DNA of 13,237 bases, taken from the NCBI GenBank assembly GCA_017515945.1, contig JAFWDX010000314.1:1-13237 (forward strand), given 5' to 3'. A program made the translations under genes and the position numbers. The notes under the pieces are model-generated. The model was given only the letters and a program-made list of their open reading frames with translations. It ran no database searches and was not told the origin of the DNA. Each line of letters starts with the position of its first letter. Position 1 is the stretch's first letter. Positions 3,245 through 13,110 of the stretch are shown here, one piece after another. This DNA comes from Blautia sp. GTDB lineage: Bacteria; Bacillota; Clostridia; Lachnospirales; Lachnospiraceae.

Positions 3245-3254
3245 TACTGATCAA

Positions 3255-3342
3255 CGGAGATGGAGGGATTTGAACCCTCGCACCGGTTGCCCGGCCTACC
3301 GCATTTCGAGTGCGGACCCTTCAGCCACTTGGGTACATCTCC
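3255..3342 (-). tRNA. tRNA-Ser (anticodon CGA)
   Basis: Read on the minus strand, all cloverleaf parts are present: acceptor GGAGATG/CATCTCC, TA at positions 8-9, D-arm CCC/GGG, anticodon stem CCGCA/TGCGG with the loop CTCGAAA (anticodon CGA, 3306-3308), a long variable arm with a GGCCGG/CCGGT stem typical of class II tRNAs, and T-arm GAGGG-TTCAAAT-CCCTC. The discriminator base is G, as expected for serine. The 3' CCA is not encoded (TTG follows on the minus strand). It decodes the serine codon UCG. It has its own promoter (3376-3404) and a hairpin 11 bases downstream. Confidence 0.96.
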
Positions 3343-3375
3343 ACATACCTGAAGCATTCTCTTCAGGCAGAAAAT

Positions 3376-3457: not shown

Positions 3458-4381
3458 TCAGATCTCCCAGAACCAGACTTTTTCAGCGGCCTTTTTTCTG
3501 GGATTCTTGATCACAAGCTCCGGACTCTTGGTACTGACCTTGGTATCCGCATCGATGGAGGCCGTAATGAAGGTATTACCGGCGACGATGCTGTTGGCGC
3601 CGATGACGGTATCTCCTCCGAGTACCGTGGAGTTGGCATAGATCGTCACATGGTCCCCGATCGTGGGATGACGCTTTATATTGGCCAGAGCCTGCCCCAT
3701 GCGCGTGGAGAGCGCACCCAGGGTTACACCCTGATAGAGCTTGACATAATTACCGATGACCGTAGTCTCACCGATGACAACGCCGGTTCCGTGATCGATA
3801 AAGAAATATTCACCGATCGTTGCCCCTGGGTTGATATCGATCCCCGTACGGCTGTGCGCATGCTCGGTCATGATCCTGGGAATGAAAGGTACTTTCTCCA
3901 GGTAGAGCACATGCGCCAGCCTGTACACATAGATGGCATATAACCCCGGATAGGAAAAAATGATCTCTTCCTTGCTTTTGGCAGCAGGGTCACCGTCAAA
4001 ACCGGCCTGGACATCCTTTAACAGCAGCTCCTGAACCTGAGGCAGGCTTTCAAAAAAAGACGCGGTGACCTCATCTGCACGCACCGAGGTATCCTCATCC
4101 TCTTCGCTGAAGTAGGAAAAAGCGATGCCGATCTGAGTGCGAAGCCTGTCATAAAGCGCGTTCAGTCTGGACCCTGCGAAATACTCCGGAAACTCCATGG
4201 AGCAGGAATCATTTCCGAAGTATCCGGGAAAGACGACCGCACGCAGCTCCTTGATGATCGCAATGATCTCGTCTCTGCTGGGCAGACAGCGCCCGCCCCT
4301 GGCCATAAAAAGTTCTTCGTTACGATAATTGTCCGTAAGTCTTTCTACGGTTTTCAGGATCGCTGATTTTTTGTCGGTCAT
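3458..4381 (-). CDS. cysE: Serine O-acetyltransferase (CysE/EpsC type)
   Basis: A 307-residue enzyme that transfers acetyl from acetyl-CoA to L-serine to give O-acetylserine, the first step of cysteine synthesis; cytoplasmic. The first 140-170 residues are helical. Then comes the left-handed beta-helix of hexapeptide repeats (about 175-290). The family signature HAHSRTGIDINPGA (174-187) is followed by IDHGTGVVIGET (195-206), with the catalytic-type Asp196-His197. KLYQGVTLGA (214-223) is the expected acetyl-CoA-site strand. At 307 residues it is longer than classical bacterial CysE (about 270) and fits the longer EpsC-type group. It ends WFWEI; a C-terminal isoleucine is what CysE of the cysteine synthase complex inserts into CysK. 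No cysK is nearby. The start is backed by a purine-rich GGAGGG site 6-12 bases upstream of the ATG. It has its own divergent promoter at 4475-4503 and is flanked on both sides by repeat copies. Confidence 0.93.
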   Translation of the reverse strand: MTDKKSAILKTVERLTDNYRNEELFMARGGRCLPSRDEIIAIIKELRAVVFPGYFGNDSCSMEFPEYFAGSRLNALYDRLRTQIGIAFSYFSEEDEDTSVRADEVTASFFESLPQVQELLLKDVQAGFDGDPAAKSKEEIIFSYPGLYAIYVYRLAHVLYLEKVPFIPRIMTEHAHSRTGIDINPGATIGEYFFIDHGTGVVIGETTVIGNYVKLYQGVTLGALSTRMGQALANIKRHPTIGDHVTIYANSTVLGGDTVIGANSIVAGNTFITASIDADTKVSTKSPELVIKNPRKKAAEKVWFWEI

Positions 4382-4503: not shown

Positions 4504-4537
4504 GCGCAGGCATTGAAGTGACAGGGGTGTTTCATGA

Positions 4538-4566
4538 TGAGTCACGGGGACAGGTTCCCTGACTCA
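4538..4566. repeat. Second REP-like palindrome
   Basis: TGAGTCA (4538-4544) pairs with TGACTCA (4560-4566). Inside, GGGA (4547-4550) pairs with TCCC (4556-4559), leaving a two-base bulge and a CAGGT loop. It lies between the two divergent promoters, 3 bases left of the -35 box of the following gene. Its GGGGACAGGTTCCC centre resembles the GGGGACGGTTC centre of the palindrome at 3201-3244, suggesting related REP-type sequences. A binding site for a regulator is the alternative. Confidence 0.6.
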
Positions 4567-4569
4567 CTA

Positions 4570-4598
4570 TTGACAAAGCCGGAGTTTTAGAGTAGACT
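4570..4598 (+). promoter_or_regulatory. Probable sigma-A promoter for the LeuA-like/fusion operon
   Basis: TTGACA (4570-4575) is an exact -35 box. TAGACT (4593-4598) matches the -10 consensus at 4 of 6 positions, with 17-base spacing. Transcription would start near 4605, leaving a leader of about 145 bases before the ATG at 4749. That leader contains a terminator-like hairpin (4666-4691). Confidence 0.65.
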
Positions 4599-4665
4599 TT
4601 ACCAGACTAAAGTCAAGTCCCCGATGGTTTGTTTCATTGCCGGTTCAACTTCATCATTGTATGAC

Positions 4666-4691
4666 GGAACTGTCTGTGACAGCCTTTTTTT
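4666..4691 (+). terminator. Terminator-like hairpin in the operon leader (possible attenuator)
   Basis: GG(AA)CTGTC (4666-4674) pairs with GACAGCC (4678-4684): 7 bp with a two-base bulge and a TGT loop, directly followed by seven Ts (4685-4691). This is the layout of an intrinsic terminator placed between the predicted promoter and the first gene, so it may attenuate the operon. An unbroken frame, ATG 4624 to TAA 4744-4746, spans it (40 codons), but it has no visible ribosome site, so I do not call it a leader peptide. I could not find a convincing antiterminator or known riboswitch core. Confidence 0.45.
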
Positions 4692-4748: not shown

Positions 4749-6158
4749 ATGAGAAGCATTAAACTGATCGACATCACACTCAGAGAATCCAACGCTTTCA
4801 GAGAAAGCGCGCTCAGCTTTAAAGAAAAGCTGGAGGTCGCCCGGGGACTGGACCGACTCCGGGTGGATGCGCTCGAGCTGCCTCCGATTGCCACAGGTAA
4901 AGCGGATCAGCTGTCCAACAAGACCATAGCATCTGTCGTCAACTGCGCCCTGACAGCCGCCGTTGACATGACAGGCAGTTCCGTGGAGGAGACCTGGGAG
5001 AGTATCCGGATGGCAAAACATCCGCGGCTCAATGTACTGGCTCCCACGTCTCCCGTTCAGATGGAATATATGGCGCACAAAAAGGCGCCGGCCATGCTGG
5101 AAGCGATCACCGAGACAGTAAAGAAATGCCGCTTCTTCTGTGAAATTGTAGAATTTTCCGCTCTGGACGCTACACGTGCCGAAAGAGACTTTTTATATAA
5201 AGCACTGGATGCCGCCGTGCAGGCCGGCGCGAGCCGTGTCACACTGTGTGATTCCGCGGGGATCTTTCTCCCGGATGAATTCGCCGCATTTGTCAGCGAG
5301 GTGAGGAGCAATGTGCCCTCACTGGAAAACATTGATATCTGTGTGCAGATCAGCGATGAGATGAATATGGCCGCAGCCTGTGCCGCCGCCGCAGTCAAAG
5401 CCGGGGCGGTAGGAGTGAAATGCACTGTGACGAGTGCGGGCTATCCGACTCTTGAGCAGATGAGCCGGTTTATCCGCGTAAAAGGCGTGGATCTGGACAT
5501 CAACAGCGGACTGCGCGTGACCGAGCTTTCCCGTACGATCTCCACCCTCAGCCATCTGCTGGAGACGCAACGCACAGAAACCTCTTCCTTTGATACGGTC
5601 GTGGGAAATGATATTTCCGGTGTCTGCCTGAGCGAGAATGATCAGATCTCCGATGTGATCAGCGTCGTACGCCAGCTTGGTTATGAACTCTCAGACGAGG
5701 ACTATGCCAAGGTGTATGAAGCGTTCCGCCGCGTGGCTGTCAAAAAGAGCTTTGTCGGCACCCGTGAGCTGGACGCCATTGTGGCCAGCACCGCCATGCA
5801 GGTGCCCACGACCTATCGGATCGAACGCTATGTCATCAACAGCGGCAATATTATTACAGCTACGGCCAACCTTACCCTGGAAAAAGACGGACAGAAGTTC
5901 CGCTCCGTGGCGATCGGAGATGGCCCTGTGGATGCCGCGTTCCTGGCGATCGAGCAGATCATCGGCCATCACTATGAACTGGACGATTTCCAGATCCAGA
6001 CGGTCACAGAAGGCCGTGAAGCCATGGGAAGCGCGCTCGTCAAGCTGCGCGCGAACGGCAAGCTTTATTCCGGAAACGGGATCTCCACCGATATCATCGG
6101 CGCGTCGATCCGTGCCTATATCAGTGCCCTCAACAAGATCGTGTATGAAGAAGGCTGA
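4749..6158 (+). CDS. 2-isopropylmalate synthase-like protein with altered metal site
   Basis: A 469-residue protein with the two-domain plan of LeuA: a DRE-TIM (HMG-CoA lyase-like) barrel at about 1-260 and a LeuA-type regulatory/dimerisation domain at about 355-465 (TYRIERYV, GDGPVDAA, GISTDIIGASIRAYISALN). Family members condense an acyl-CoA with a 2-oxo acid on a divalent metal. Key positions differ here. The TLRDG motif is TLRES, so Arg12 is kept but the metal-ligand Asp is Glu13. Glu43 (ALELP) is kept. The HxHND motif is QISDE, so His ligands become Gln200 and Ser202. The GxGERxGN loop is absent (SAGYPTLEQ). It is therefore unlikely to be an ordinary LeuA, homocitrate or citramalate synthase; a changed chemistry or a non-catalytic role are both possible. 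AAGGAG lies about 11 bases before the ATG. It is first in a two-gene operon with the fusion gene, 26 bases downstream. Confidence 0.8.
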   Translation: MRSIKLIDITLRESNAFRESALSFKEKLEVARGLDRLRVDALELPPIATGKADQLSNKTIASVVNCALTAAVDMTGSSVEETWESIRMAKHPRLNVLAPTSPVQMEYMAHKKAPAMLEAITETVKKCRFFCEIVEFSALDATRAERDFLYKALDAAVQAGASRVTLCDSAGIFLPDEFAAFVSEVRSNVPSLENIDICVQISDEMNMAAACAAAAVKAGAVGVKCTVTSAGYPTLEQMSRFIRVKGVDLDINSGLRVTELSRTISTLSHLLETQRTETSSFDTVVGNDISGVCLSENDQISDVISVVRQLGYELSDEDYAKVYEAFRRVAVKKSFVGTRELDAIVASTAMQVPTTYRIERYVINSGNIITATANLTLEKDGQKFRSVAIGDGPVDAAFLAIEQIIGHHYELDDFQIQTVTEGREAMGSALVKLRANGKLYSGNGISTDIIGASIRAYISALNKIVYEEG

Positions 6159-6184: not shown

Positions 6185-8683
6185 ATGAAGCTTTCGTTTT
6201 CTATTCAGAACTGGTCCGGCATTTCGTGGAATGAGCTCTGCGCGGTTGCCTCGGATGTGCGGATCCAGGGTGTTGAAATATATGATGTGAAAAGTCCTGT
6301 CTTTGCAGGCAAGGATTCTCCCGCAAATCCTGAAATGGCCGCTGCCGCCAGACGCAGCCTGGTCCGTCAGAATCTGCAGGTTCCCTGTGTGGATACGGTA
6401 ATGGATTTTACCGATCCGGCCTTTGCGGATGAATTTGAAAATGTCCTCACCATGGCGGTTAATCTCGGCATCAGCTACATCGCTTTGCATACCCGGTGTG
6501 AGGATACATCGGTATGCGAAGCTTCTCTGCAGAGATTCATGGAACGCATAGCGGATACCAGAGTCGTACTGCTGGTGGAATCCACCGGTGAATATGCGGA
6601 TACCGCAAAGCTCCGTGACCTGCTCAACCGGTTTGCGGATGACAGACTGGGCGCGGTATGGGACATGTATGCCACGTATGTCCGGGGCAAGGAGGACGCG
6701 GAGACGACCATAACAAATCTCGGCGCGTATGTACGCCATGTGCATGTGCATGATTTTCGCTGGGACGACGGGGCTTTTGTCCCCGAGCTGATCGGTGACG
6801 GGTCCCTGCCCATGAAGGATATGATGAACGCCCTTCGTTCGGTCAATTATGACGGTTTCATTTCCCTGCAGTGGGATCCGGACTGGATCGAGGGGTTGGG
6901 CGACCTGGAGATCATCCTGATTCATTTCGCTACATGTATGGGCCGCTTTGAGAGTACGAGGCTGCATCGCCGTCACCATTACTGGAACAATGCGCATACC
7001 GGAAAATATGTCTGGAAGAAGGAAGAGTTGATCGACAAGACCTTCCCCCAGGTGCTGGACACCATGGTCAATGAATTCCCGGATCAGCTTGCGATCAAAT
7101 TTACGACCCTTGATTACACTCGTACGTACCGCCAGTTCAGGGACGACGTGGATGAATTTGCCCGCGCGCTGGTATCGCTGGGAGTGCGTGCAGGCAGCAA
7201 GGTCACCATCTGGGCGACCAATGTACCCGCCTGGTTTCTTACCTTCTGGGCCAGCACAAAGATCGGCGCGGTTCTGGTGACCATGAATACGGCGTACAAG
7301 ATCCATGAAGCGGAATATCTGCTGCGTCAGTCGGATACCCATACGCTGGTCATGATCGACGGTTACAGGGATTCCAACTATAAAGAGATCATCAACGAAC
7401 TGTGCCCGGAGCTGGCCTCCAATAAGCCCGGACAGCCGTTGCACGCCCGCCGGCTTCCCTTCCTGCGCAACGTGATCAGCGTGGGCTTTCGTATGCCCGG
7501 CGCCCTGACCTGGGAGGAATCTCTCGAGTATGCCAGCCGGACGCCCATGGCCGAGATTACCCGTATGGCCAGTGCGGTCAATGTCAATGATGTCTGCAAC
7601 ATGCAGTATACGTCCGGCACGACCGGATTCCCCAAAGGCGTCATGCTGACGCATTATAATATTGTAAATGACGGCAAGAGCATCGGCGACGGCATGGATC
7701 TGTCCACGGCGGACCGCATGATGATCCAGGTGCCCATGTTCCACTGCTTCGGGATGGTGCTGGCCATGACGGCCACCATGACCCATGGAGGAACGATCCT
7801 GCCGATTCCCTATTTCAGCCCGAAATCGTCCCTTGCATGCATCAACAATGAACATATAACGGCCTTTCATGGTGTGCCGGCGATGTTCATCGCCATGCTG
7901 CAGCATCCGGATTTCCCAAAGACGGATTTCAGTTACATGCGTACCGGCATCATGGCCGGAAGTCCCTGCCCGATCGCGGTCATGCGCGATGTGGTTGAAA
8001 AGATGCACATGCCTGAGATCGTTATCGTATACGGACAGACAGAGGCATCTCCGGGCTGTACGATGAGCCGGACGACAGATTCTCTGGAGGTCCGTGTGAC
8101 GACGGTCGGGAGAGCATTCCCGGAGATCGAGTGCAAGATTGTGGATCCCGAAACCGGGGAAGACTGCCCGGATGAGGTGATCGGTGAATTTGTGGCCCGC
8201 GGCTACAATATCATGAAAGGGTATTATAAGATGCCCAAAGCCACCGCCTCGGCCATCGACAAAGATGGATGGCTCCATACAGGCGATCTGGCCTGCCGGA
8301 CTCCGGAGGGGAATTACAGGATTACCGGGCGGCTTAAGGATATGATCATTCGTGGTGGTGAAAATATTTATCCCAAGGAGATCGAAGAATTTATCTATAC
8401 CCATCCAAAGGTGAGCGACGTACAGGTCATCGGCGTACCCGACCAGGCGATGGGTGAGAAGATCATGACCTGCATCATCCTCAAAGAAGGCGAGACCATG
8501 ACAGAACAGGAAATGAAGCAGTATGTTCTGGATCATATGGCAAAACACAAGGTGCCGAAATATATCGACTTTGTCGACGGATTCCCGATGAATGACGCCG
8601 GGAAGATCCAGAAATACAAAATGCGAGAGCAGGCGGTGGAAAAACTGGGCCTGCAGAAGGCGGCGTCGATCGAGACGGCCTGA
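6185..8683 (+). CDS. Fusion: sugar-isomerase-type TIM barrel + acyl-CoA synthetase
   Basis: One uninterrupted 832-residue frame. Residues 1-250 resemble xylose isomerase-like/AP endonuclease 2-type TIM barrels (sugar-phosphate isomerases and epimerases): VES with Glu132, WD with Asp160 and HVHVHD (185-190). The usual final Glu ligand appears as Gln229 in ISLQWDP. Residues about 275-825 form a complete adenylate-forming ligase of the fatty-acyl-CoA synthetase type (ACSF2-like by eye): P-loop YTSGTTGFPKG (475-485), YGQTE (616-620), GWLHTGD (695-701), GRLKDMIIRGGENIYP, and the catalytic C-terminal lysine Lys807 in AGKIQK. That half should activate a carboxylic acid with ATP and then load CoA. 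The substrate is unknown. The start is set by GGAGG at 6171-6175; an out-of-frame ATG at 6178 is ignored. It follows the LeuA-like gene by 26 bases and is followed by a strong terminator, so the pair is one operon. The joining of domains looks genuine, since no stop or restart signal is seen near residues 250-275. Confidence 0.88.
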   Translation: MKLSFSIQNWSGISWNELCAVASDVRIQGVEIYDVKSPVFAGKDSPANPEMAAAARRSLVRQNLQVPCVDTVMDFTDPAFADEFENVLTMAVNLGISYIALHTRCEDTSVCEASLQRFMERIADTRVVLLVESTGEYADTAKLRDLLNRFADDRLGAVWDMYATYVRGKEDAETTITNLGAYVRHVHVHDFRWDDGAFVPELIGDGSLPMKDMMNALRSVNYDGFISLQWDPDWIEGLGDLEIILIHFATCMGRFESTRLHRRHHYWNNAHTGKYVWKKEELIDKTFPQVLDTMVNEFPDQLAIKFTTLDYTRTYRQFRDDVDEFARALVSLGVRAGSKVTIWATNVPAWFLTFWASTKIGAVLVTMNTAYKIHEAEYLLRQSDTHTLVMIDGYRDSNYKEIINELCPELASNKPGQPLHARRLPFLRNVISVGFRMPGALTWEESLEYASRTPMAEITRMASAVNVNDVCNMQYTSGTTGFPKGVMLTHYNIVNDGKSIGDGMDLSTADRMMIQVPMFHCFGMVLAMTATMTHGGTILPIPYFSPKSSLACINNEHITAFHGVPAMFIAMLQHPDFPKTDFSYMRTGIMAGSPCPIAVMRDVVEKMHMPEIVIVYGQTEASPGCTMSRTTDSLEVRVTTVGRAFPEIECKIVDPETGEDCPDEVIGEFVARGYNIMKGYYKMPKATASAIDKDGWLHTGDLACRTPEGNYRITGRLKDMIIRGGENIYPKEIEEFIYTHPKVSDVQVIGVPDQAMGEKIMTCIILKEGETMTEQEMKQYVLDHMAKHKVPKYIDFVDGFPMNDAGKIQKYKMREQAVEKLGLQKAASIETA

Positions 8684-8689
8684 TCTATG

Positions 8690-8726
8690 ATACCTGTTCA
8701 GTCTGACTGGACAGGTATTATTTTTT
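8690..8726 (+). terminator. Strong intrinsic terminator closing the operon
   Basis: ATACCTGTTCAGT (8690-8702) pairs with ACTGGACAGGTAT (8706-8718), 13 bp with a single wobble, around the loop CTG, followed by TATTTTTT. It starts 7 bases after the fusion gene's stop. It separates the LeuA-like/fusion operon from the amidohydrolase-nifJ unit. The left arm contains CTGTTCAGTC, ten bases of the dispersed repeat core. Confidence 0.9.
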
Positions 8727-8753: not shown

Positions 8754-9566
8754 ATGTACAGAATCGTGGACAGTCATTGTCATATTTATCCGGATGGGAT
8801 CGCCCGAAAAGCCGTTAAGGCTGTGGACAGATTTTACGACGGTCTGCCGGCCGATCATCACGACGGAACGGTATCTACTTTGCTGGATTCCGGACGTGCA
8901 TGCGGGATCTCTCATTTTATCGTACATTCAGTGGCTACCACACCACATCAGGTTTCCTCCATCAATCATTTTATCGCACGCAGTGTTGCAGAGTCCGATG
9001 GACGCATGACCGGGATGGGTACCATGCATCTGGAGAGTGGTGACCTGGAAAGAGACCTGGATGAGATCATCGGTCTTGGCCTCAAGGGCGTCAAACTCCA
9101 TCCTGATATCCAGAAATTCAATGTGGATGATATACAGGCCATGCGGATCTTTGAGATGTGTGAGGATAAAGGGCTTCCGGTCTGTGTACATACGGGTGAT
9201 TACAGATACGATTATTCTAATCCGCCCCGAGTGGCCCGGGTCCTGCGGGCTTTCCCCAGGCTGAAATTTATTGGGGCTCATTTCGGCGGATGGAGCGTAT
9301 GGGACGAGGCGATCAGGATCCTGCCCGATTTTCCAAACCTGATGGTGGATACATCCTCCACTTTCCACTGGAAGGAACCGGAGGCTGTCCGGGAAATGAT
9401 CTATATTTACGGGCCGGAGCGGGTCATGTTCGGTACGGACTATCCGCTCTGGTATCAGGATCCGGATCTGGCTTATATGAGAACACTCAACCTGAAGCCG
9501 GAAGAGTTTGAAAAAATCTTCTGGAAAAATGCTGCGGAGCTATTTCACATCGACTTCGGTGACTGA
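8754..9566 (+). CDS. TIM-barrel metal-dependent hydrolase (amidohydrolase family 2)
   Basis: A 270-residue cytoplasmic protein with the metal-site pattern of the amidohydrolase superfamily, COG2159 type: DSHCH (His8, His10) on strand 1, GVKLHP (Lys114), VHTGD (His146), GAHFGG (His176) and FGTDYPL (Asp229). Relatives include hydrolases and the metal-dependent decarboxylases related to ACMSD and gamma-resorcylate decarboxylase. The substrate cannot be named from motifs alone. Length is normal and the protein looks intact. The start at 8754 is backed by AGGAG (8742-8746), 7 bases upstream. It lies 40 bases before nifJ on the same strand and probably shares its transcript. Its last codons and stop (GGT-GAC-TGA) lie on half a copy of the dispersed repeat. 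Confidence 0.82.
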   Translation: MYRIVDSHCHIYPDGIARKAVKAVDRFYDGLPADHHDGTVSTLLDSGRACGISHFIVHSVATTPHQVSSINHFIARSVAESDGRMTGMGTMHLESGDLERDLDEIIGLGLKGVKLHPDIQKFNVDDIQAMRIFEMCEDKGLPVCVHTGDYRYDYSNPPRVARVLRAFPRLKFIGAHFGGWSVWDEAIRILPDFPNLMVDTSSTFHWKEPEAVREMIYIYGPERVMFGTDYPLWYQDPDLAYMRTLNLKPEEFEKIFWKNAAELFHIDFGD

Positions 9567-9572
9567 ACAGTT
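9561..9572 (-). repeat. Dispersed palindromic element, half copy D
   Basis: The exact core GACTGAACAGTT lies at 9561-9572. The match to copies B and C extends to GTGACTGAACAGTT (9559-9572). The partner arm seen in copies A-C (GTAACTGT) is missing at the expected distance, so this is a half or decayed copy. It supplies the amidohydrolase stop codon (TGA, 9564-9566) and most of the spacer before nifJ. Confidence 0.6.
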
Positions 9573-9606
9573 GGCGGTTACCGTAAAACCTAATGGAGAC
9601 AGACAG

Positions 9607-12600
9607 ATGAACGACAACAAAAAAACATATGTAACGATGGACGGGAATGAGGCAGCGGCTTATATTGCCTATGCATTTACCGAGATCGCGGCAATCTATC
9701 CGATCACTCCGTCTTCACCCATGGCCGGAAAAACGGACGTATGGTCTGCCAAAGGCAGGAAAAATCTGTTCGGGCAGCAGGTGCAGCTGATGGAGATGCA
9801 GTCCGAGGCAGGTGCCTGCGCAGCTGTACACGGCGCGCTGCAGACAGGGGCGCTGGCCACCAGTTATACATCATCACAGGGACTGATGCTGATGATCCCG
9901 GTCATGCACCGGATCGCAGGCGAACGTCTGCCGGGTGTGCTGCATGTGGCTGCGAGAACCGTAGGCACACATGCCATGTCGATCTTTGGCGATCATTCGG
10001 ACGTGATGAACTGCCGACAGACCGGATTTGCCATGCTGGCCACCGGCAGTGTGCAGGAGGTCATGGATCTGGCAGGGGTCGCTCATCTGGCCGCTGTCAG
10101 GGGCAGGGTTCCCTTTATGCATTTCTTTGATGGCTTTCGGACGAGCCATGAGATCGACAAAGTGGAGCAGATCGATTACGAAGACCTGCGGGGCATGCTG
10201 GATTATGAAGCCCTCGATGCATTCAGAGCCCATGCACTCAATCCGGAGCATCCGATGATCCGTGCCACGGTGCAGAATCCGGACATCTATTTCCAGGTCC
10301 GTGAGGCCAATAATACCGCTTATGAACAGCTTCCGGATATTGTGGAAGATTATATGGGCAGGATCAATGAGCTGACCGGTCGGGATTATCACGTATTCAA
10401 CTATTATGGCGCACCGGATGCGGACAGAGTCATCGTAGCCATGGGATCTGTCTCAGGGTGCATCTGCGAAGTGGTGGATGCGCTCAACGCGGCAGGGGAG
10501 AAGGTCGGCTTTATTCAGGTTCATCTTTTCCGTCCCTTTGATATCTCACGATTTACTGCCGCCATACCTGCCACCTGCAAGGCCGTTGCCGTACTGGACC
10601 GCACAAAGGAAATGGGCAGTGCCGGCGAACCTCTTTATCAGGATGTATGTACTGCTCTGCGAGGAAGAAATGATCTGGTGGTGGTCGGAGGACGGTATGG
10701 CCTTTCCTCAAAGGATACAGCCCCGTCTCAGATCGTGGCGGTCTATGAGAATCTTCGCGCTGCTTCTCCGGTGAACAGCTTTACCATCGGGATCATTGAC
10801 GATGTGACGCACCGGTCTCTGCCGGAAAAAGGCGCCTTTTATCCTGAAAATGACGGCGTCGTGAGCTGCAAATTCTGGGGCCTGGGCTCAGATGGCACCG
10901 TCGGAGCCAACAAAAATACCGTGGAGATCATCAACAGTCATACCGCAAAATTTGCCCAGGCTTATTTTGAATATGACGCAAAGAAATCCTACGGAATCAC
11001 AAAGAGCCATCTGCGTTTTGGAGACAGTCCGATCCGCTCATCCTATTATGTGAAGCGCGCGGATTTTGTGGCGTGTCATAATCCGACATATATTGAGAGA
11101 TATGACATCGCCGAGGAGGTAAAGGACGGAGGCATCCTGCTCCTGAACTGCCCGTGGGAGGGCGCTGAACTGGAAAAGCACCTGCCAGCGCATACAAAAC
11201 GTGAGATCGCGTCCCGCCACATTCGTTTTTACACGATCGACGCCGTGAAAATCGCGGGAGAGCTTGGTCTTGGAAATCACTTCAATATGGTACTGCAGTC
11301 GGCGTTCTTCCATCTGATGCCGGTCATCCCGGTGGATGAGGCCGTCGGTTATATGAAAGACGCAGCGGCAAAGACATATTTTGCAAAGGGCGAAGAGGTC
11401 GTGGCGAAAAATCTGGCGGCGATCGATGCCGGAAAGGACGGCCTGAAGGAGGTCGCGGTTCCTGAAAGCTGGAAGGACACCCAGGATCCGCCGGCACAGC
11501 AGCGCAATGTCCCCGAGGTGGTGACAAAGATCCTGGAGCCGCTCAATGACCAGAAGGGTGATGATCTGCCGGTCAGCGCCTTTGAAAAATACATCGACGG
11601 AGTCATGGACATGGGCCTGACGGCTTATGAAAAACGCGGGATTGCGATCCGCGTGCCTGTATGGGATCCGGATAAATGCATTCAGTGCAATAAGTGCAGC
11701 TATGTCTGTCCGCATGCGGTGATCCGTCCCTATCTGCTGACAGAGAAAGAAAAAGCGTGTGCGCCTGAGGGAATGAAGACTGCGAATGCAAAAGGCAAGC
11801 AGGCAGAAGGTCTGTATTTTGCCATGCAGATCAGCGCTCTCGACTGCACGGGCTGCGGAAGCTGTGCCAATGTATGTCCCGCAAAGGAAAAAGCGTTGAC
11901 CATGACCGCGGCCGCGGATGTGCCGGATACCGGCGATGCCTGGGAATATGCGCTCTCACTGCCGGATAAAGGGGATATCTTTGATCCGTATACGGTCAAA
12001 GGCAGCCAGTTCCGCCGGCCGCTTCTGGAGTTCAGCGCAGCCTGTGCCGGCTGTGGAGAAACACCCTATGCAAAACTGCTGACCCAGCTGTACGGAGACC
12101 GCGTGTACTGGGCAAATGCCACCGGCTGTTCACAGGCCTGGGGCAGCGCGATGCCTGGTATTCCATATACCACCAATCCGGAAGGAAGGGGACCTGCCTG
12201 GTCCAACTCCCTGTTTGAAAATAATGCCGAATTCAGTCTGGGCATGGTCCTTTCCGTGCGCCAGCAGAGGGAAGCCCAAAAGATGAGGATCGAGGCCTAC
12301 AGGGAACAGACGGAGAATGAGACCGTGCGTGGGGCGATCGACGGCTGGCTGCAGACCTATGAGGATATCGACGCCAATGCGGCAGCGAGCCGGGATCTTA
12401 TCGCCGCTCTGGAAACATGTGGTGACGAAGCTGCGGATACGATCCTGCGTTATAAAGACCAGATCTCCAAAAAGACCTTCTGGATGTATGGCGGCGACGG
12501 CTGGGCTTATGATATCGGTTTCGGCGGTCTGGATCATGTCATCGCCAGCGGAGAGAATGTCAATGTGCTGATCGTGGATACAGAAGTTTACTCTAACACC

Positions 12601-13110
12601 GGTGGCCAGTCCAGTAAAGCTACCCCCATCGGCGCAGTGGCTCAGTTCGCGGCTGCCGGCAAAAAACGTCCCAAGAAGGACATTGGCGGCATGCTTATGA
12701 CATATGGGAATGTATATGTGGCACAGGTGGCCATGGGCGCGGATAATGCGCAGCTTGTCAAGGCCATTAGGGAGGCACAGGAATACAACGGGCCGAGTGT
12801 GATCGTCGCCTATGCGCCCTGCCAGAGCCATGGACTGAAATGCGGCATGGATAAGGTACAGGATGAGATGAAACGGGCCGTGGATGCAGGATACTGGTAT
12901 CTGTACAGATACAATCCGGACGCAGAAAAGAAATTTACACTTGACTCTAAGGCTCCGTCGATTCCTTATGAGGATTTCCTGGGAGGAGAAGTCCGTTACG
13001 CTTCCCTGCTGAGGACTTTCCCGGATAACGCAAAGCAGCTCTTTGCGGAAGGGGCCAGATTGTCAAAGGAAAAATATGACAGCCTGAAAAATATTGAGGA
13101 CAGGAGCTGA
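9607..13110 (+). CDS. nifJ: Pyruvate:ferredoxin (flavodoxin) oxidoreductase
   Basis: A 1167-residue single-chain enzyme that decarboxylates pyruvate to acetyl-CoA and CO2 and reduces ferredoxin; cytoplasmic, central to clostridial fermentation. Domains run in the expected order: pyruvate/TPP domain I with YPITPSSPMA near the N-terminus, a transketolase C-like domain, and the EKR-type linker region. A two-cluster ferredoxin domain follows (Cys691, 694, 697, 701 and Cys747, 750, 753, 757). The TPP domain carries the proximal-cluster cysteines Cys813, Cys816, Cys841 and Cys1072, the last in APCQSHG. The thiamine motif GGDGWAYDIGFGG includes Asp964. Everything needed is present. The start is placed at the ATG at 9607, 8 bases after GGAG (9595-9598), because MNDNKKTYVTMDGNEAAA matches family N-termini. 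An in-frame ATG at 9508 would lie inside the amidohydrolase gene and add 33 unrelated residues. Other 2-oxo acids cannot be excluded as substrates. Confidence 0.95.
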   Translation: MNDNKKTYVTMDGNEAAAYIAYAFTEIAAIYPITPSSPMAGKTDVWSAKGRKNLFGQQVQLMEMQSEAGACAAVHGALQTGALATSYTSSQGLMLMIPVMHRIAGERLPGVLHVAARTVGTHAMSIFGDHSDVMNCRQTGFAMLATGSVQEVMDLAGVAHLAAVRGRVPFMHFFDGFRTSHEIDKVEQIDYEDLRGMLDYEALDAFRAHALNPEHPMIRATVQNPDIYFQVREANNTAYEQLPDIVEDYMGRINELTGRDYHVFNYYGAPDADRVIVAMGSVSGCICEVVDALNAAGEKVGFIQVHLFRPFDISRFTAAIPATCKAVAVLDRTKEMGSAGEPLYQDVCTALRGRNDLVVVGGRYGLSSKDTAPSQIVAVYENLRAASPVNSFTIGIIDDVTHRSLPEKGAFYPENDGVVSCKFWGLGSDGTVGANKNTVEIINSHTAKFAQAYFEYDAKKSYGITKSHLRFGDSPIRSSYYVKRADFVACHNPTYIERYDIAEEVKDGGILLLNCPWEGAELEKHLPAHTKREIASRHIRFYTIDAVKIAGELGLGNHFNMVLQSAFFHLMPVIPVDEAVGYMKDAAAKTYFAKGEEVVAKNLAAIDAGKDGLKEVAVPESWKDTQDPPAQQRNVPEVVTKILEPLNDQKGDDLPVSAFEKYIDGVMDMGLTAYEKRGIAIRVPVWDPDKCIQCNKCSYVCPHAVIRPYLLTEKEKACAPEGMKTANAKGKQAEGLYFAMQISALDCTGCGSCANVCPAKEKALTMTAAADVPDTGDAWEYALSLPDKGDIFDPYTVKGSQFRRPLLEFSAACAGCGETPYAKLLTQLYGDRVYWANATGCSQAWGSAMPGIPYTTNPEGRGPAWSNSLFENNAEFSLGMVLSVRQQREAQKMRIEAYREQTENETVRGAIDGWLQTYEDIDANAAASRDLIAALETCGDEAADTILRYKDQISKKTFWMYGGDGWAYDIGFGGLDHVIASGENVNVLIVDTEVYSNTGGQSSKATPIGAVAQFAAAGKKRPKKDIGGMLMTYGNVYVAQVAMGADNAQLVKAIREAQEYNGPSVIVAYAPCQSHGLKCGMDKVQDEMKRAVDAGYWYLYRYNPDAEKKFTLDSKAPSIPYEDFLGGEVRYASLLRTFPDNAKQLFAEGARLSKEKYDSLKNIEDRS

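Follow-up and report, generated by a model that had tools for sequence, protein, structure and literature searches.

The locus analyzed here, a 13,237-nucleotide stretch of Blautia sp. DNA (the window), raises the question of what a protein with the fold of isopropylmalate synthase (LeuA) does once its metal site has been rewritten. The protein is encoded by ORF 4749-6158, which has AAGGAG on its 5' side, and a first-pass annotation made from the DNA letters had proposed either new chemistry or a regulatory pseudoenzyme. LeuAx is our own label for this protein and its family. The reading that we favor, and consider reasonably probable, is that LeuAx is a leucine-sensing regulatory pseudoenzyme of an acyl-CoA ligase that would feed isovalerate into leucine via reductive carboxylation.

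The LeuA-like fold, including the C-terminal dimer domain, was confirmed by Pfam, with an HMGL-like match at residues 4 to 259 (4e-34) and a LeuA_dimer match of 108.7 bits, over the cut-off of 24.9. We called residues from alignments with solved LeuA chains and with five canonical LeuA proteins from clostridia. D8, R12, and E43 are kept, the Asp of the DRE motif is E13, HCH is replaced by Q200-I201-S202, and the IGERAGN loop reads SAG----YPT, with four residues missing. The annotation had anticipated these calls for the HxH ligands, the DRE motif, the GxGERxGN loop, Arg12, and Glu43. LeuAx of the window thus has the fold of the HMGL-like/DRE-TIM metallolyase barrel and lacks its metal site, and TIGR00973 gives it 281.3 bits, far under the curated cut-off of 598.7. 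In a structure model built from 24 sequences, the regulatory domain came out weakly (mean pLDDT of 74.7), and a model built from 52 sequences reached a mean of 85.9 there; the structure comparisons mostly cover residues 1 to 290, and the regulatory domain was judged mainly by sequence.

Table 1. Positions of the features of the window discussed in the text
Feature	Coordinates	Strand	Basis or detail
Promoter-like site TTGACA-17-TAGACT before LeuAx	4570..4598	+	Consensus scan, weak
Terminator-like hairpin and T run in leader	4670..4690	+	Consensus scan, weak
LeuAx, putative LeuA-like pseudoenzyme	4749..6158	+	ATG start, 469 aa plus stop
Catalytic barrel, apparently dead, residues 1-265	4749..5543	+	E13, Q200-I201-S202, GERAG loop deleted
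LeuA_dimer (regulatory) domain, residues 339-464	5763..6140	+	PF08502, E 2.5e-31
Xylose-isomerase-type TIM barrel, N-terminal part of fused ORF	6185..7009	+	PF01261, 1.4e-18
AMP-forming acyl-CoA ligase, C-terminal part of fused ORF	7010..8683	+	PF00501, 9.1e-88
16-pair terminator-like hairpin after two-gene unit	8687..8721	+	Consensus scan
Amidohydrolase (Amidohydro_2)	8754..9566	+	PF04909, 6.7e-41
One-piece pyruvate:ferredoxin oxidoreductase (PFOR), mechanical ORF	9508..13110	+	TIGR02176, 1729.5 bits, cut-off 911

The LeuAx family is large. When a relative (L074) was used as the query, 7545 of 8000 scored candidates matched at an E value of ≤1e-100, and its best match to the five canonical LeuA proteins reached only 2e-80. 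Among the 80 named relatives that carry the gene, two are Eggerthellaceae, and most are metagenome-assembled genomes (MAGs) of Clostridia from the gut and rumen. The annotation had warned that pipelines would misname the protein, and this was half right: one relative (P0084) bears an isopropylmalate/homocitrate name, another (P0153) is a "regulatory domain-containing protein," and the other few printed source names are "hypothetical protein." None of 240 proteins listed by two family searches has an HxHND motif. We aligned 218 members, comprising 120 listed proteins (that of the window included), 78 of 80 scan loci (the other two were short or broken and were dropped), and 20 loci from the class sample. 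R12, D13, H200, and H202 occur together in none of the 218, window included; none has Asp at position 13 or HxH at 200 to 202, and a lone His at 200 or 202 is found in just two (L050 and L088). The GERAG-type loop is shortened by four residues in 210 members and by three in the other 8. After removal of sequences at least 70% alike, 62 remained, in which position 200 is Q (20), E (17), S (12), or another residue (13), and position 13 is E (22), Q (17), or another residue (23); position 202 is S in 44, and position 12 is R in 37 or K in 19. Neither QxS nor TLRES, whose conservation across a clade the annotation had put forward as a check, is fixed in the family. One would expect a new enzyme to retain a residue set of its own, and none is conserved at the metal positions of the 62 dereplicated sequences. 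Since none of the 218 keeps the metal set and the replacements vary, new metal chemistry is unlikely; a new metal site was rejected because no conserved replacement set was found at the metal positions across the full alignment.

The gene after LeuAx encodes the fused TIM barrel and ligase listed in Table 1. A ligase lies downstream of LeuAx in 75 of 81 loci; in each of the other six, less than 900 bp of contig remains. With start codons picked by a script, the median gap is 2 nt; 71 of the 75 gaps are within 100 nt, and 23 are 4-nt overlaps. In a class sample of 243 genomes, searched for LeuAx at E ≤1e-70, all 22 LeuAx genes abut the fused gene by their coordinates. We take S477, D701, and K807 to be the catalytic motif positions of the ligase, and these are intact in all 84 LeuAx-linked and all 20 LeuAx-less copies. 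The window ligase resembles the PRK12583-like AMP-forming acyl-CoA ligases (NF009233; 692.5 bits) in retaining these residues; it differs from them in falling under the cut-off of 832, in being fused to the xylose-isomerase-type barrel, and in being paired with LeuAx. Each residue presumably required at the metal site of a xylose-isomerase-type barrel is present in 20 of 20 LeuAx-less fused copies, whereas the same positions vary in the 84 LeuAx-linked copies (E at 229 in 50, H at 163 in 35) and are altered to T134, A163, and Q229 in the window, indicating that the barrel of the ligase has decayed where LeuAx is present.

The fused gene also occurs on its own. By a hand count of the matches listed, 50 of the 72 class-sample genomes with the fused gene have no LeuAx match at 1e-70, and LeuAx is near the fused gene in none of the 20 such loci whose surroundings were fetched. 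We therefore rejected the proposal that the fused ligase always requires LeuAx; that the ligase does not need LeuAx counts against our best reading. In a quick, midpoint-rooted ligase tree, two changes of the LeuAx label were needed. The occurrence of the fused ligase on its own, together with the conjectural nature of LeuAx-ligase contact, lends something to an alternative in which LeuAx senses a branched-chain ligand and acts on a transporter, the oxidoreductase, or a transcription factor, or only scaffolds the second decayed barrel. We judge this alternative unlikely in view of the 22 of 22 adjoining gene pairs, the frequent 4-nt overlaps, and a ligase barrel that is decayed beside LeuAx and intact in the 20 copies without it.

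The predicted substrate of the ligase comes from T-box leaders. The Rfam T-box model (RF00230) scored over threshold just 5' of LeuAx in 4 of 7 and 7 of 8 loci given (11 of 15), the set of 8 having been chosen after a core scan. That scan found a T-box 5' of LeuAx in 71 of 101 loci, of which 56 come from the 77 scan loci having 400 nt of upstream sequence and 15 from the 20 class loci, two sets whose genomes may overlap. The 21 scan loci without a T-box include L024 and L025, close relatives of the window, and Rfam detected no T-box in the window at either threshold, a point against the favored reading. Among 72 specifiers before LeuAx, 64 read Leu (55 CUC, 8 CUG, and 1 CUA), 6 were undecoded, and 2 were other (L080 and L101); all six specifiers read by eye from the Rfam alignments were Leu (five CUC and one CUG). 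The 20 loci with the fused ligase, an intact isomerase-type barrel site, and no LeuAx (L116 to L135) have a T-box in 13 cases, 11 of them Leu, 1 undecoded, and 1 AUG. A second ligase type, with helix-turn-helix (HTH), cupin, and MbcS-like ligase domains and assigned through similarity to L061, has 35 T-boxes, read as Ile (17), Val (9), undecoded (5), and other (4); one of the last group, at L089, reads GUC, Val, by eye. Locus L089 has three T-boxes, which read Leu, Ile, and Val. Before other genes, 58 T-boxes gave 46 undecoded specifiers, 12 mixed codons, and no Leu, so that the specifier pattern does not force Leu. From the Leu T-boxes of relatives, we predict that the fused ORF encodes an isovaleryl-CoA ligase.

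Leaders of leucine genes offer a precedent: a CUC triplet gives leucine-dependent control in the Bacillus subtilis ilv-leu operon, according to the title of a reference within PMC2494555, and RF00230 leaders with CUC or CUG specifiers likewise precede LeuAx in relatives. The known targets named in the accessible portions of PMC2494555 and PMC3766115 are genes for tRNA ligases, biosynthesis, and transport, a point of difference from the LeuAx leaders, and the CoA and ferredoxin terms looked for do not occur in the main texts of the two papers. Where many relatives carry a T-box, the window has an inverted repeat (TGAGTCA...TGACTCA) with promoter- and terminator-like sites (4536 to 4690), perhaps another attenuator. 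Among 155 fetched loci, the only ones with the repeat (about 4536 to 4564) are L001 and L003, both copies of the contig of the window; both site scans were weak, with 7 promoter-like sites against 5.1 expected in shuffles and 7 terminators against 3.9.

Genes that could supply the later steps lie near LeuAx in part of the family. Of 81 loci, 17 have a branched-chain aminotransferase near LeuAx and 34 have VorB or a one-piece PFOR there; the four aminotransferases scanned scored 510, 469, 453, and 500 bits (cut-off, 307), and the three VorB proteins scored 541, 549, and 532 bits (cut-off, 399). VorB, an aminotransferase, or the HTH-cupin-MbcS-like ligase adjoins 11 of 20 LeuAx class loci versus 1 of 20 LeuAx-less ones (P = 0.0012), a count that leaves out PFOR, which is found upstream at LeuAx-less locus L131. 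VOR or an aminotransferase stands directly beside LeuAx in just 4 of 20 class-sample loci. The window's own oxidoreductase, whose true start is probably about 100 nt downstream of 9508, is a candidate for the carboxylating enzyme of the proposed route, and against that route it scores by family as an ordinary PFOR. A one-piece PFOR homologue lies beside LeuAx in 21 of 81 loci only, and in the window a terminator-like hairpin stands between the two, which weakens the idea that PFOR is always part of the LeuAx unit. Amidohydrolase homologues occur within 8 kb of LeuAx in 20 of 81 loci. On the minus strand, the window also has a serine O-acetyltransferase-like gene (3458 to 4381; 151 bits against a cysE cut-off of 211) and a tRNA-Ser (cga; 3254 to 3343), and in several relatives a P-loop protein (ParA/CbiA-like, below cut-off; L083:15017-15709 and relatives) precedes VorB.

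The second ligase type is represented by L061:6338-8605, in which the HTH, cupin, and MbcS-like acyl-CoA ligase domains were scanned, and L099:15059-17350. MbcS, the methylbutyryl-CoA synthetase of Staphylococcus aureus, was the best model for the two ligases of this type that were scanned (429 and 441 bits), under its cut-off of 850; the Pfam-scanned copy differs from MbcS in its N-terminal HTH and cupin domains, and the cupin may be another sensor. According to the part of PMC10026030 available, MbcS works best on 2-methylbutyrate and isobutyrate and uses isovalerate poorly, which agrees with the MbcS-like ligase having Ile and Val T-boxes and with Leu being served by another ligase.

The usual leucine pathway is scarce in carriers. 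Among 50 carriers, drawn from the 80 scan loci, LeuB was over cut-off in 7 and canonical LeuA was found in 3; LeuB is the better marker of the pathway because the TIGR00973 search misses a longer LeuA type. In the class sample, with shared descent ignored, LeuB was found in 4 of 22 carriers versus 148 of 221 others (P = 1.1e-5), canonical LeuA in 2 of 22 versus 78 of 221 (P = 0.015), ilvC in 5 of 22 versus 135 of 221 (P = 0.001), and an aminotransferase in 20 of 22 versus 165 of 221, which is no difference (P = 0.12). Within the window's genus, again ignoring shared descent, LeuB was present in 0 of 9 carriers versus 24 of 28 others (P = 5.7e-6), and in 0 of 5 versus 17 of 17 at a completeness of at least 89%. 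Against our reading, some carriers keep the usual leucine genes: the two most divergent (G143 and G214) retain LeuA, LeuB, and ilvC. Given that carriers are also low in ilvC, several may simply be amino acid auxotrophs.

The same scarcity would suit amino acid fermenters, in which leucine biosynthesis is often missing, and thus an opposite flux: the aminotransferase and VOR or PFOR would oxidize leucine to isovaleryl-CoA and isovalerate, with LeuAx signaling leucine supply. Both VOR and the aminotransferase are reversible. AMP-forming ligases spend ATP, however, which suits uptake, and T-boxes with Leu, Ile, and Val specifiers turn genes on when charged tRNA is scarce, which is the logic of supply. 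The window's own genome also counts against oxidation: this MAG, 79% complete, yielded ilvC but neither LeuA nor LeuB. We regard this direction of flux as improbable.

The distribution of constraint within LeuAx bears on whether it could be an enzyme of another kind. Pairwise identity among LeuAx proteins is 41% in the barrel versus 67% in the regulatory domain, the latter being higher in 1891 of 1891 (nonindependent) pairs; for the five canonical LeuA proteins, the values are 60% and 48%, and the regulatory domain is higher in 0 of 10 pairs, likewise not independent. LeuAx thus departs from LeuA (TIGR00973, PRK00915) in lacking its metal ligands, DRE Asp, and GERAG loop and in having a barrel less constrained than its regulatory domain. 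Of 22 regulatory-domain columns invariant in the five canonical proteins, 17 are retained in more than 90% of the family. At the positions that we take to form the leucine pocket, mapped by hand onto LeuAx, G392, P393, L411, F414, G422, A425, D448, and I449 are each kept in at least 210 of 218 members; the residue at 418 is T in 149, S in 44, and A in 25, and position 445 varies less (I 193). Metal-free chemistry on an acyl-CoA or a 2-oxoacid could draw on the conserved barrel residues D8, E43, D140, R143, and D168 and on the family-specific, fixed T165, K224, and E106. We nevertheless hold it to be very unlikely, as the metal positions drift, the loop is deleted, and the barrel is the least conserved part, with 38 of 92 canonical-invariant barrel columns retained in less than 10% of the family. 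Regulation of an ordinary LeuA through mixed dimers is barely credible and was rejected: the two proteins have the dimer domain in common and occur together in a few carriers (3 of 50 for canonical LeuA; 2 of 22), but most carriers show no LeuA, a full-length LeuA of any type is present in at most 9 of 50 among the matches listed, and an HMGL-like search of the window's 79% complete genome found no other LeuA-type gene.

Of the two roles first proposed for LeuAx, new chemistry therefore found no support, and a LeuA-derived regulatory pseudoenzyme is well supported by the sequences: the metal site is gone in 218 of 218 members, its replacements vary, the loop is deleted, constraint has shifted to the regulatory domain, and the gene is paired with an intact acyl-CoA ligase. 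The link to the ligase, the T-boxes of relatives, and the missing leucine pathway of carriers go beyond what the annotation had noted.

We infer an isovalerate-to-leucine pathway and, more loosely, a sensor role for LeuAx. LeuA would have lost catalysis and been retained as a leucine-sensing regulatory subunit, partnering the co-encoded fusion of a degenerate TIM barrel and an intact AMP-forming ligase. The ligase would turn isovalerate into isovaleryl-CoA, which a branched-chain 2-oxoacid:ferredoxin oxidoreductase (VorABC in many relatives, perhaps the PFOR-type enzyme next door in the window) would carboxylate to 2-ketoisocaproate, and a branched-chain aminotransferase would convert this to leucine. 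Leucine bound by the LeuA_dimer domain would then throttle the ligase, the same feedback that LeuA gives the usual pathway. In the setting of such a route, a LeuA stripped of catalysis and left with its leucine domain would most simply be a feedback sensor of the ligase. To a wider scenario we give an even chance: in a branch of gut and rumen Clostridia, leucine derived from isovalerate would replace that derived from pyruvate. Three T-box-controlled acid:CoA ligases would act on isovalerate for Leu, 2-methylbutyrate for Ile, and isobutyrate for Val, and VOR and the aminotransferase would be common to all. LeuA, useless as an enzyme, would have been recruited to the Leu ligase as a subunit that senses leucine, and the TIM barrel of that ligase would then also have lost its active site.

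That rumen microbes can make leucine out of isovalerate is long established, and in the rumen branched-chain acids act as growth factors. Carboxylation of isovalerate to leucine in rumen anaerobes was described by Allison and coworkers in 1962 and 1966, as cited in the part of PMC7356843 available, and excerpts of PMC2812497 and PMC10658910 cover the route for methanogens. The predicted chemistry of the LeuAx module is the same, and its carriers are mostly gut and rumen MAGs; the classic work differs in being biochemical. The literature matches listed contained no gene set with a LeuA-derived sensor for the isovalerate route. Likewise, no LeuAx protein, isopropylmalate synthase pseudoenzyme, or T-box acyl-CoA ligase appeared among the listed titles and abstract beginnings of open-licence papers, which is weak evidence.

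If true, the wider scenario would supply the genetic basis of a rumen route from branched-chain fatty acids that has been characterized by biochemistry. LeuAx with its ligase may lead to the genes behind a nutritional route recognized in rumen microbes since the 1960s. The gene set is concrete and testable and carries built-in substrate labels in its T-box specifiers. LeuAx itself, from a family of thousands whose members with a printed name are mostly called hypothetical, would be a clear example of an enzyme that has probably become a sensor, its active site abandoned by selection and its allosteric domain retained. The finding bears on which gut bacteria depend on acids from their neighbors.
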